A DNA stretch of 38,484 nucleotides from Alphaproteobacteria bacterium MarineAlpha3_Bin6 (GTDB lineage: Bacteria; Pseudomonadota; Alphaproteobacteria; Rhodospirillales; UBA2165). The notes beneath the pieces are model-generated. The model saw nothing but the letters and a program-made list of their open reading frames with translations, had not been told where the DNA came from and ran no database searches. The position numbers and the translations under genes are program-made. Below, one piece after another: positions 4,336 through 9,959 of the stretch (its first letter is position 1; each line of letters starts with the position of its first letter). Where the stretch lies: positions 1-38,484 of the forward strand of contig PTLH01000007.1 in NCBI GenBank assembly GCA_002938035.1. The letters are read 5' to 3'.

Positions 4336-6372
4336 TTACCTCAACGCTGCTTCGATATTCCCCCCATCAACCGTTAAAATCGCTCCTGTAGTACTAGGAG
4401 AAAGGGCTAGGTCAAGAAAAGCTTTTGCTACATCATTGGCGGTCACCTCCCGACCCAACAGGTTACCCCTTAAATACTCGTCTTCACTTAACTTTCGTGC
4501 TTTCGATCTCATAGCAATCATTTCATCGCTAAGTAAGCCAGAACGAACTCGGTCCGCATTAACCCCACTCGCGCGAATGCCATGTTTACCGTGGTCGAGC
4601 GCGTATTGTCTCACCAAGAATAAAGTTGCAGCTTTTGGAAGGCCATATGGACCAAAGTTTTTTCCAGGATTTACGGCCTGCTTAGACGTATTGAAAAGAA
4701 TACAGCCACCTGAACCACCTGCCGAGTGTTGTGCTCGCATAACTCGAACCGCATTTTGGGCAATCGTCTGATGAGCAAAAAAGTTGAGCTCAAAACTTTT
4801 TCGCAAAACTGACTCTGAGACCGTCCCAATTTCTCCTTGCCATGCCCCTCCAGCGTTTGAAACAACAATATCCAGTCCACCAAAGGAAGAAATTACTCGC
4901 TTAAACGCTTGGCCTACGGCAATCGCATCCGTTACATCCACTACTAAACCTAGACCATCCAATTTCTCGGCAACTGACCTAGTTGCATTGGCATTGACAT
5001 CCAAGACTACTACTTCCGCACCGGCGTCTCGGAAGATTTGAGCCGTGGCTTGACCAATGCCTGAACCGCCGCCCGTTATTAAAGCTACGCGTCCTTTAAG
5101 AGGTGGAGAAATTGCTACTTCTAATTTTGCTGATTCTGGAGACCAATACTCTATATCGAACATGTCTCTAGTTGATATAGATGAAAATTTACCTATCGAT
5201 TCAGCCGCCGTTATAACCTCAATCCAGTTTTCTGCTAGATCTGCTATCATACTGGCGTTCTCGGCCGTATCGCCGGCTCCGTACAATCCTTGCCCCGGAA
5301 CCAAAACCACCCGAGGCGAGGCTTCCCGCATAGTCTTAGTATTTCCAAATCGTTGATTGTTCTTTGTAAAGTACCGCTTGTACGCAACGGTAAATTTTTC
5401 TACCGCTCTACGAACGGTTATCGCATCAAACTCTGACGGCAGGATAAGTGGTTTAGGCTTGGTCCAAATCACATGATCAGGAGTGACTGGTCCAGTATTA
5501 GCATAACGAGTTAAATCCTTCCCATCTAAAAACTTTCGGATCAGTTGGTTCGTCCTAAATTCCAAAATCACACCGGAGGTTTCACCCGTGCTACTGATTA
5601 GCGCACCCCGTAGAAGGGGCGCTAGCTTCTGCCTGGAATAGGGTAAAAAAGGCTGAGAACGCCCCACAAAAACACGTTTGCGACTACGTTTGACACTCGC
5701 TTTGGCAAAATTAACTACCCTGATCATATTACCATAAGCTTCCTTAGCAGAGATGCCAAATGTGAATACGCCGTGTTTAATTACAACAAGTGCTGAAACA
5801 TCTGGATATTTTCGAGCTGCAATAGCCGCTTTCTTTGCTAGCTCAAACCCAGACATTGCATAAGGTAAAACTATAACATTGGGTCCAAAAACCTTCGCTG
5901 CCTGCGTCTTACCATTTGGTTGGTTGGTTACCGCCAGTACTGAATTTGCATGCGTATGAAATATGTAGGGCGCCGGTAGAAAAACATGCATTAATGTTTC
6001 CACGGATGGCGAAGGCGATCTAAAATCCAGTTTTGCTTGGTTAAACACGGCTAACATGTGGTCGTCACTAAGCCTATTAAGGCCTTCAAGCTCTTTAAGT
6101 TTATCTAGATCAAGGGCGGTAAAACCATCAATATTGATCCCCGCCAGATCATGTCCGCTAGCTTTGATATATATCGTGTTTACCTCTCGGCCCAACACAT
6201 CTCGTGTGGTTGTCTTCACGGACGTATTGCCCCCCCCGTGAACCACCAATGTCTTGCTAGCGCCGATAAGACGTGAAGCATGTATACATTGTGCTAGTGG
6301 CGCCGAGGCACCCTGGCGACCAAACATTTTAATAGCCGACACCTCCTCTTCATATAACCATTTGATAGTCAT
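4336..6372 (-). CDS. Bifunctional class II aldolase / short-chain dehydrogenase (RhaD-like)
   Basis: This is a two-domain cytoplasmic enzyme of 678 residues. Residues about 20-400 are a class II (zinc) aldolase domain: GGGNTS (46-51), Glu125, and His139/His141 in FHTHAN as metal ligands, with a further His in KHGVFTFG. Residues about 425-678 are a short-chain dehydrogenase: TGGGSGIG nucleotide loop, NAGG, a Ser in FNTSKQ, and YGLPK carrying the YxxxK pair. This matches the rhamnulose-1-phosphate aldolase/lactaldehyde dehydrogenase fusion family, but no rhamnose genes are nearby, so the sugar is uncertain. The first ATG aligns with the family N-terminus. An alternative ATG at residue 16 has a strong AGGAGGTG upstream, but about 13 nt away. 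Confidence 0.88.
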   Translation of the reverse strand: MTIKWLYEEEVSAIKMFGRQGASAPLAQCIHASRLIGASKTLVVHGGGNTSVKTTTRDVLGREVNTIYIKASGHDLAGINIDGFTALDLDKLKELEGLNRLSDDHMLAVFNQAKLDFRSPSPSVETLMHVFLPAPYIFHTHANSVLAVTNQPNGKTQAAKVFGPNVIVLPYAMSGFELAKKAAIAARKYPDVSALVVIKHGVFTFGISAKEAYGNMIRVVNFAKASVKRSRKRVFVGRSQPFLPYSRQKLAPLLRGALISSTGETSGVILEFRTNQLIRKFLDGKDLTRYANTGPVTPDHVIWTKPKPLILPSEFDAITVRRAVEKFTVAYKRYFTKNNQRFGNTKTMREASPRVVLVPGQGLYGAGDTAENASMIADLAENWIEVITAAESIGKFSSISTRDMFDIEYWSPESAKLEVAISPPLKGRVALITGGGSGIGQATAQIFRDAGAEVVVLDVNANATRSVAEKLDGLGLVVDVTDAIAVGQAFKRVISSFGGLDIVVSNAGGAWQGEIGTVSESVLRKSFELNFFAHQTIAQNAVRVMRAQHSAGGSGGCILFNTSKQAVNPGKNFGPYGLPKAATLFLVRQYALDHGKHGIRASGVNADRVRSGLLSDEMIAMRSKARKLSEDEYLRGNLLGREVTANDVAKAFLDLALSPSTTGAILTVDGGNIEAALR

Positions 6373-7003: not shown

Positions 7004-7702
7004 CTAGTTAATCTGTCGTAGATTTTTGTCCAAAATCTTGGCAGCGTAAGCATTCCTTTTGCGAAGATTGTTTTCGAAAACTTCCAAGAACTCCGGCACA
7101 ACCGAGCCTTTTACTATATCATCATCGACCAGCGCTTGCCGCCAGGAATCAACCTTAGGAAAATCTTTCATAGTTCCTGTTTCACATAAATTTTCAATCA
7201 AAGTAAATCTCATGAGAAAGGGTGCATACGCAGCATCTACAATGCAAAGGTCCCTTCCGTTGAAATAGGGGCCCGCATTGCCCCGCTCTACGGTTAAGGC
7301 CTCTTCCAGCCTGGCAAGTGCCGGTCGTGCGTTCTCTGCCGCCTTTTCCTGAGTTTGCTTAGTTTCAGCATAGCTGACTGCTCCTAGTGATTTAGAGAAA
7401 TCTGGTGTAAAGTCTGTCCAAGCGCGGTTGCGTGCTCGCTTAATAGGATCCATAGGATGCAACCTGGGTTTTACCGTCTCGTCGAGAAACTCAGTGATTG
7501 CACACGATTCAAATAGGACTTCGTCATCCACCCATAATACAGGCACTTTACCATGAGGCGATATTTCCAAAAACCACTCCGGCTTGGCGTCCGCAGTAAT
7601 ATGAGTTACTTCAAATTCAACACCCTTAGCCCGCAATACAATCACGGCACGCTGGACCCAGGGTCAAGTTTTAAAACTGATAATATGGTATTTTTTTAGC
7701 AA
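7004..7702 (-). CDS. Probable selenocysteine-containing glutathione S-transferase
   Basis: A conventional reading gives 213 residues from a GTG at 7645, beginning mid-domain (VIVLRAKGVEFEVTH). Continuing upstream in frame gives ISFKT-TGA-PWVQRAV, with no other stop until TAG at 7718-7720. Cys-type GSTs begin with 'xISFxxCPyVQR', so the TGA (7664-7666) falls exactly on the catalytic Cys and the first beta strand is restored. A SECIS-like hairpin follows (7623-7663). The start is uncertain: TTG at 7702, with CGGAAG just before, gives 232 residues with Sec13. HGKVPVLW (cis-Pro) and LFESCAITEFLDE (glutathione contact) are intact, and the C-terminal helical domain is full length. The alternative is a recent nonsense mutation or sequencing error. 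The GST family is certain; Sec is strongly inferred. Confidence 0.8.
7623..7663 (-). promoter_or_regulatory. Candidate bacterial SECIS hairpin
   Basis: On the minus strand directly after the TGA, CCCT can pair with AGGG, GC with GC, then CCGTGA with TTGCGG (including two G-U pairs), around an apical loop TTGTA at 7637-7641. A 3-nt bulge and an internal loop interrupt the stem. The loop begins 22 nt after the TGA, inside the 16-37 nt spacing described for bacterial SECIS elements. If the weak inner pairs open, the loop is GATTGTATT and begins with the expected G. I folded this by eye and did not calculate an energy. Confidence 0.5.
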
Positions 7703-7808: not shown

Positions 7809-9959
7809 ATGAAACAAGTTATCCAAAGCGCACGGAACGGAAAACTGGAAGTAAAGGAAGTGCCCCCCCCTAAAGCAGGGACACGCGAGATCCTAGTTCG
7901 CACCACAGCTTCTCTTATTTCGGCAGGAACCGAGCGGATGGTAGTAGATTTTGCTAAAAAATCGATGCCAGCAAAGGCTAAAGCCCGGCCGGATTTGGTT
8001 AAAAAAATATTGACTAAAGCAAAGACTGACGGCGTAACCGCAACGTTCAAGGCGGTTATGTCCCGTCTCGACGAACCACTTCCGTTAGGGTATTCGGCCG
8101 CAGGGAGCGTAGTTGAAGTTGGCGAAGGGTTGGAAGGTTCTTTCCGAGTTGGCGATAGGGTTGCGATATCAGGTGCAGGCATTGCAAACCACGCCGAATT
8201 ATGTGCCGTTCCCCGCAACCTTGCCGCCCCCATCCCAGAAGGCGTATCAGACCAACAAGCGTGTTACGGTACCTTATCAGCAATCGCGCTGCACGCTGTC
8301 CGCAATCTAGACCCCGGATTAGGTGACATGGTTGCGGTGTTAGGCCTTGGTTTAATCGGTCAACTTGCCTGCCAACTGCTTGGCGTGGCTGGTGCAAGAG
8401 CCATCGCCATGGACTATGACGACGAACGCCTCAAGACAGCCAAATCGAATGGCGCAGAACTCGCTATAAACCTTCAAGTGCCCGATTTAATCAATCGGGT
8501 AATGTCTCACACATCAGGACGAGGCTGTGACGGCATTCTGATAGCGGCAGCCACACCATCAAACCACCCTTTCGAAACTGCCGCAGATCTTGCCCGAGAC
8601 CGCGCTAGAGTTTGTTTGGTTGGGTTCAGTGGCACTGAGTTTCCCTATGCACCATTCATGCAAAAAGAACTTTCCATCATAGTATCCCGGTCTTATGGCC
8701 CCGGCCGGTACGACGAGGACTACGAGAACCGTGACGTGAAGTATCCGGAAGGTTTTGTTCGCTGGACAGAAACTGAAAACCTTACCGAGTCATTACGCCT
8801 TATGTCGCCAACTATAAATCCGCGTCTAAATATAGCAGCGCTAACCACCCATACCTTTAAAATTTCTGAAGCAGAGAAAGCGTATAAACTCGTTATTGAA
8901 AAATCCGAGCCTCATCTGGGTATCGTTCTAACTTACCGAGACACTAAGCAAGTTCCCAATAAACCCTCCCAACATGTTCAAACCTCAGTAAAAAATGACG
9001 CGTGCGTACTTGGGGTGATTGGCGGTGGTAACTTTGCTCGTAATACGTTGCTACCAGAAATTTCAAAAGTGCCTGATGCCATACTCCATACACTAGTTAC
9101 TAAAAGAGGCGCGTCCGCAGATTTCAGCCAAAACAAATTTGGTTTCACAAGAGCGTGTTGCGAAGAAAATGACATATTCGAGAACCCAAGCATCAATGCC
9201 GTACTTGTTGCTAGCCGCCATAACAGTCACGCACGTCTAACGGTGGAAGCTTTGTCCGCTGGCAAATCTGTTCTGGTAGAAAAACCACTTGGTCTTAATA
9301 AAGAAGAACTTCAAGCTATCCGTCTTGCCCGGAAGGACGCGAACGCTTTTTTCCAAGTTGGTTTTAATCGTCGATTTGCTCCTCTTGCTGTTAAAGCCAG
9401 AAATATGCTGGCAGCAATCAGCGGACCCAGATTTATGGTTTTCCGAATAAACGCTGGATCCGTACCAGTCGGGTCCTGGCTTCACTCACCGAATGAAGGT
9501 GGTGGGCGAATTATTGGTGAAATGTGCCATTTTATAGATCTTGCAAGATTCTTCGCTAATAAACCCATCGTATCGGTAATGGCAGACTCCCCTCGCTCAA
9601 ATAATAACATTTGTGATGATGTAACAGCCACACTCCGGTTTGATGATGGTGGTTTGGGTGTTGTTGTCTATACCTCTCTTGGGGATAATGCATACCCTAA
9701 AGAAAATTATGAGATTTATGCTGGCGGTTCGGTTATTGCCCTCAATAATTTTAGAACCCTAACTGTAACTTCCGGAGGCACAACCCAGAAGTCTGGCGTC
9801 AACCAAGATAAAGGTTATAAGAGTTCACTGATTGCTTTTGTCGAAGCGGTCAAATCTGGTGGACCCGCACCTATCGATGAGGAAGAATTACTGGAAACAA
9901 GTCACGCTACCTTGGCCATCCTAGAATCATTAAGGACTGGTCGTCGGGTTAAGCTGTGA
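7809..9959 (+). CDS. Bi-domain oxidoreductase: MDR-type dehydrogenase fused to Gfo/Idh/MocA
   Basis: This 716-residue fusion has residues 1 to about 370 as a medium-chain (zinc-type) dehydrogenase, with ISAGTERM, PLGYSAAGSVVEVG and an NAD loop VLGLGLIGQL at about 177-186. The usual catalytic-zinc and structural-zinc Cys clusters are not seen, so zinc binding is doubtful. Residues about 397-716 are a Gfo/Idh/MocA domain: LGVIGGGNFARN nucleotide loop, VLVEKPLGL (about 488-496, with the EKP motif) and GGGRIIGEMCHFIDLARF. Such fusions are typical of surface-polysaccharide loci, where they probably act on nucleotide sugars or cyclitols. The hldE gene follows after 24 bp on the same strand, probably as one operon. 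The substrate is unknown. Confidence 0.85.
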   Translation: MKQVIQSARNGKLEVKEVPPPKAGTREILVRTTASLISAGTERMVVDFAKKSMPAKAKARPDLVKKILTKAKTDGVTATFKAVMSRLDEPLPLGYSAAGSVVEVGEGLEGSFRVGDRVAISGAGIANHAELCAVPRNLAAPIPEGVSDQQACYGTLSAIALHAVRNLDPGLGDMVAVLGLGLIGQLACQLLGVAGARAIAMDYDDERLKTAKSNGAELAINLQVPDLINRVMSHTSGRGCDGILIAAATPSNHPFETAADLARDRARVCLVGFSGTEFPYAPFMQKELSIIVSRSYGPGRYDEDYENRDVKYPEGFVRWTETENLTESLRLMSPTINPRLNIAALTTHTFKISEAEKAYKLVIEKSEPHLGIVLTYRDTKQVPNKPSQHVQTSVKNDACVLGVIGGGNFARNTLLPEISKVPDAILHTLVTKRGASADFSQNKFGFTRACCEENDIFENPSINAVLVASRHNSHARLTVEALSAGKSVLVEKPLGLNKEELQAIRLARKDANAFFQVGFNRRFAPLAVKARNMLAAISGPRFMVFRINAGSVPVGSWLHSPNEGGGRIIGEMCHFIDLARFFANKPIVSVMADSPRSNNNICDDVTATLRFDDGGLGVVVYTSLGDNAYPKENYEIYAGGSVIALNNFRTLTVTSGGTTQKSGVNQDKGYKSSLIAFVEAVKSGGPAPIDEEELLETSHATLAILESLRTGRRVKL

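Follow-up and report, generated by a model that had tools for sequence, protein, structure and literature searches.

Background

The selenoproteins listed in the Global Ocean Sampling (GOS) survey of 2008 (Zhang and Gladyshev, PMC2398784) include a glutathione S-transferase (GST), in line with what the preliminary description of the present locus had said of marine selenoproteome surveys. Selenocysteine (Sec)-containing GSTs were listed again in reviews of 2022 (PMC9312934, record PPR62222.1) and 2026 (PMC13188914, record MEK9676863.1). The accessible portions of the text of these three papers do not give the lineage, the invariant loop motif or the Sec/Cys exchanges described here, and the literature found beyond the three lists holds no details on the GST.

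The window analysed here is a stretch of 38,484 nucleotides from Alphaproteobacteria bacterium MarineAlpha3_Bin6. It carries a gene that resembles the bacterial GST-like selenoprotein family (COG0625/PF13409) in being a Sec-GST, predicted computationally, of the same COG/Pfam family and from marine bacteria; its match to the listed records is by COG/Pfam name only. We propose that this gene very probably encodes an omega-like GST selenoprotein, in which codon 13, a UGA, specifies Sec. The kind of protein is known, and the window gene is a new, well-documented member of a listed but unstudied selenoprotein family; the lineage, the SECIS motif, the Sec/Cys exchange and the omega-like assignment are new here.

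Gene structure and protein family

The following two features define the gene:

7004 to 7702, minus strand: predicted Sec-containing GST gene, with a single internal stop, GST_N and GST_C domains and full-length homologues
7664 to 7666, minus strand: in-frame TGA, predicted to be read as Sec, in the column of the GSTO1 Cys

The minus-strand frame running from 7702 to 7004 comprises 232 codons, and its sole internal stop is the TGA at 7666-7664 (codon 13, in the context ISFKT-TGA-PWVQRAV). It translates as LLKKYHIISFKT-TGA-PWVQRAV... and ends with TAG at 7004-7006, so that reading through the TGA would give a product of 232 residues with Sec at position 13. Because an in-frame TAG 15 nt upstream closes the frame and TTG 7702 falls in the same alignment column as the ATG start of the nearest relative, TTG 7702 was taken as the start codon. 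Mechanical ORF calling placed the start at GTG 7645, which is also where the preliminary description had begun the longest stop-free frame. That description had further put the TGA six codons upstream of this GTG: the TGA is indeed upstream in the same frame, but the GTG is the seventh codon after it, with six codons between them.

The read-through product is a two-domain GST, with an N-terminal thioredoxin-type domain and a C-terminal helical domain (Pfam GST_N_2, residues 12-76, 7.9e-20; GST_C_3, 2.1e-5). Among solved structures it is closest to omega GSTs (GSTO1, 2.7e-21), and codon 13 aligns with the Cys of their CPFAQR/CPFAER motif, the established catalytic Cys of GSTO1; the placing of the TGA at the catalytic position in the preliminary description agrees with this. 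GSTO1 and other Cys-type GSTs (DHAR; the SspA fold) share with the window GST the fold as judged by sequence, a CPxxQR-type active-site motif and the glutathione-site motifs VPVL and ES, whereas the window GST differs from them in its predicted Sec in place of Cys, its distant sequence and its bacterial origin. Nearer to it are Cys-type GSTs of Alpha- and Betaproteobacteria (SFKTCPWVQRAAIVLRxK), full-length homologues that are 43-60% identical to it, which have TGC or TGT at codon 13 and usually Ala rather than Val at residue 20, and which are without GCCGTGAT.

The source genome also encodes a second GST (L133, C52 1711-2223), 39% identical and with TGT at the active-site column, which is a Cys-type paralogue. 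Two domain fusions lie near the GST gene in the window: a class II aldolase joined to a short-chain dehydrogenase (4336-6372, minus strand), and a zinc-type alcohol dehydrogenase joined to a GFO/IDH/MocA oxidoreductase (7809-9959, plus strand).

Conservation of the TGA codon

Alignment with GST homologues showed either Cys or TGA in the codon-13 column. TGA is present in 25 distinct genes, the window's included, the relatives being 53-70% identical to the window gene; 88 other distinct homologues have TGC or TGT, and TAA or TAG occurs in none of the genes compared. Across 84,980 species genomes, TGA occupies this codon in each of the nearest 8 loci (70-53% identity), and Cys in each of the 72 that follow. 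Within the window's GTDB family, TGA was found in 16 of the 19 genomes with a GST match and TGC in two, the remaining GST being cut off before codon 13 by a contig end; further Cys and TGA forms are present elsewhere in the order. As the same TGA recurs in 25 distinct genes, it is neither a chance event nor a sequencing error.

Among the TGA genes, differences fall mainly at third codon positions, upstream of the TGA as well as downstream (codon positions 1/2/3: 0.20/0.12/0.53 upstream and 0.16/0.09/0.48 downstream). The upstream part is therefore selected as protein in the same frame, in keeping with the earlier statement that the frame stays open and coding beyond the TGA. These data bear directly on the view that the TGA is a genuine stop, or else the result of codon decay, and that the gene is either a pseudogene or expressed as a truncated GST from the internal GTG 7645. 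Such a view would account for the start given by ORF calling and would fit with the failure to find selA and selB in the source genome (89% complete). However, the same TGA, with no other stop, is kept in 25 distinct genes diverged to 53% identity, purifying selection acts on either side of it, and a truncated product would have neither the first strand nor the catalytic residue; we regard this view as very unlikely.

A single in-frame TGA cannot by itself distinguish Sec from another residue, such as the Trp of genetic code 4. This reading was rejected, since TGA is in ordinary use as a stop, ending 6 of the 20 large ORFs in the window. Moreover, the tRNA with anticodon TCA is a tRNA-Sec, and at the homologous position 88 genes have Cys and none has Trp, which leaves genetic code 4 with next to no probability. 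Judging from these comparisons with relatives, the codon-13 TGA of the window gene almost certainly encodes selenocysteine.

Invariant motif and predicted SECIS hairpin

Two further features lie immediately downstream of the TGA:

7641 to 7648, minus strand: GCCGTGAT, invariant motif at the predicted SECIS loop (codons 19-21)
7622 to 7664, minus strand: predicted SECIS hairpin, lying within the gene immediately 3' of the TGA

The motif lies 15 nt after the TGA in 25/25 distinct TGA genes and in 0/88 distinct Cys genes. Synonymous variation, measured in 23 TGA genes over 96 conserved codon columns, is lowest at codons 20, 19 and 18, where GTG (23/23), GCC (23/23) and CGC (21/23) are used; the constraint is also high at codon 24 (CGT, 19/23). 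A peak of synonymous constraint at this motif is as expected of a SECIS loop. The apparent SECIS constraint reaches the protein level: residue 20 is Val in all TGA genes and Ala in 77 of the 88 Cys genes.

In the window gene, the hairpin has a predicted energy of -16.1 kcal/mol and a 7-nt loop (CGUGAUU) located 17 nt after the UGA. The majority fold, with codons 17-19 as 5' arm, codons 19-20 at the loop start and codons 23-25 as 3' arm, has six pairs, 94% of which are standard across the stem columns. The bacterial SECIS model asks for a G in the first two loop positions, a loop of 3-9 nt and a distance of 16-37 nt after the UGA (PMC13188914). The window hairpin fits this model, a lax rule that 67% of synonymous shuffles pass and that 62 of 76 Cys genes also follow. 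Compared with synonymous shuffles, the hairpin has no extra stability in most genes; stem covariation is not significant, with one compensatory change, and an Rfam search of the region gave no match. Discrimination between Sec and Cys genes thus comes from the motif and the synonymous constraint, not from energy, covariation or the generic SECIS rule.

In seven Cys-GSTs of family f27 (L193, L194, L196-L198, L201 and L202), whose genomes gave no selA match, Val is found at residue 20 as GTC and not GTG. This Val is possibly a relic of a Sec ancestor from which the SECIS constraint has been lifted.

Selenocysteine machinery in the source genome

The source genome (2.2 Mb, 89% complete) contains a tRNA-Sec (79.4 bits) with anticodon TCA (UCA) and a SelD (405 bits) whose frame contains a single TGA, in GGGUGCK. 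This SelD (L001 1402-2448, contig C92) is itself a predicted selenoprotein. No match to selA was found in this 89% complete genome, and the selB search returned general elongation-factor-type matches and no true selB. The preliminary reading of the gene as a probable selenoprotein is supported by the TGA conservation, the alignment and the search for sel genes, which yielded tRNA-Sec and SelD but neither selA nor selB.

The source genome's selC sits on a 5-kb contig that breaks off 152 bp past it, in the direction in which selA is found in relatives. In three of them (G013, G028 and G029) the corresponding GST gene is located near selC, with selA 9-23 kb past selC. Because the contig breaks on the selAB side known from relatives, selA and selB are likely missing from the source assembly through an assembly gap, and the organism would possess both. 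In the nearest relative (G026/G001, 85% complete), selA, a true selB and selC were not found, and SelD with TGA is present.

The failure to find selA and selB in either genome would also be explained by a recent loss of the machinery in the genus, the GST and selD being relics and Sec in the course of being lost. Against such a loss, the tRNA-Sec and the Sec-type SelD are intact, the GST gene has kept both its frame and its loop motif, the break in the selC contig is on the selAB side, and both genomes are incomplete (89% and 85%); we give it only a slight probability. It is more improbable still that the genus has no canonical SelA or SelB and relies on divergent or unknown factors to read UGA as Sec.

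Distribution of the machinery and Sec/Cys exchange

Most relatives have selA and selB, selA being found in 16 of the 24 genomes of the window's family, and 17 of the 19 SelD matches in the family have one in-frame TGA. In two genomes whose GST has TGC at codon 13 (G014 and G015, 100% and 90% complete), selA, selC and selD were not found, and the eight family f27 genomes without selA have a Cys-type GST. Across the order's genomes of at least 90% completeness, selA accompanies the TGA-GST in 8/8 cases and the Cys-GST in 4/13 (9/13 being without it; Fisher p = 0.0046, with genomes counted regardless of kinship). The association has exceptions on both sides: selA occurs together with a Cys GST in four genomes (G052, G057, G072 and G077), and G074 (82% complete) has a TGA GST and no selA match. 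A GST tree with codon 13 masked requires at least three Sec/Cys changes, of which only one is forced by well-supported branches alone.

The GST of G072 (L204) was rejected as a TGA gene: its codon 13 is TGT, and its TGA occurs much further along the frame, close to a contig end. This late TGA is followed by unrelated sequence and looks like a frame break or an assembly-edge effect, not Sec. Elsewhere, G025 has two tRNA-Sec genes (L152 and L166) on separate contigs, both with anticodon TCA, and G016 has selA and a SelD without in-frame TGA (L179), the family's SelD otherwise having the TGA.

Proposed mechanism and significance

In the proposed Sec reading, SelD would supply selenophosphate and SelA would make Sec-tRNA. 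The tRNA-Sec (UCA) would then read the UGA at codon 13, brought there by SelB, which would bind the hairpin immediately 3' of this UGA; the invariant GCCGUGAU is in the loop region of the hairpin. The product would be a 232-residue GST in which the nucleophile, at the N-terminal end of helix 1, is a selenol in place of the usual thiol. By analogy with omega GSTs and DHAR, this selenol would form a selenenylsulfide with glutathione, and the enzyme would most likely act as a GSH-dependent reductase or thioltransferase, in a glutaredoxin-like way. The motifs predict glutathione binding and thioltransferase/DHA reductase activity, and the omega-type active site suggests selenol-based GSH-dependent reduction. 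The glutaredoxin-like action would be monoselenol, since there is no second Cys to complete a UxxC motif.

The window gene and its relatives offer a clean comparative case for a family that is otherwise only listed, in metagenomic surveys and as single accessions, in the accessible literature. They reveal an order of Alphaproteobacteria whose GST appears to alternate between Sec and Cys, for the most part in step with selA. In the Sec forms, the presumed SECIS loop imposes a pair of invariant codons, GCC for Ala and GTG for Val. All such Sec-GST genes would be cut short by ORF calling. Finally, the natural Sec/Cys GST pairs would make possible a direct test of the benefit that Sec brings to a GST.
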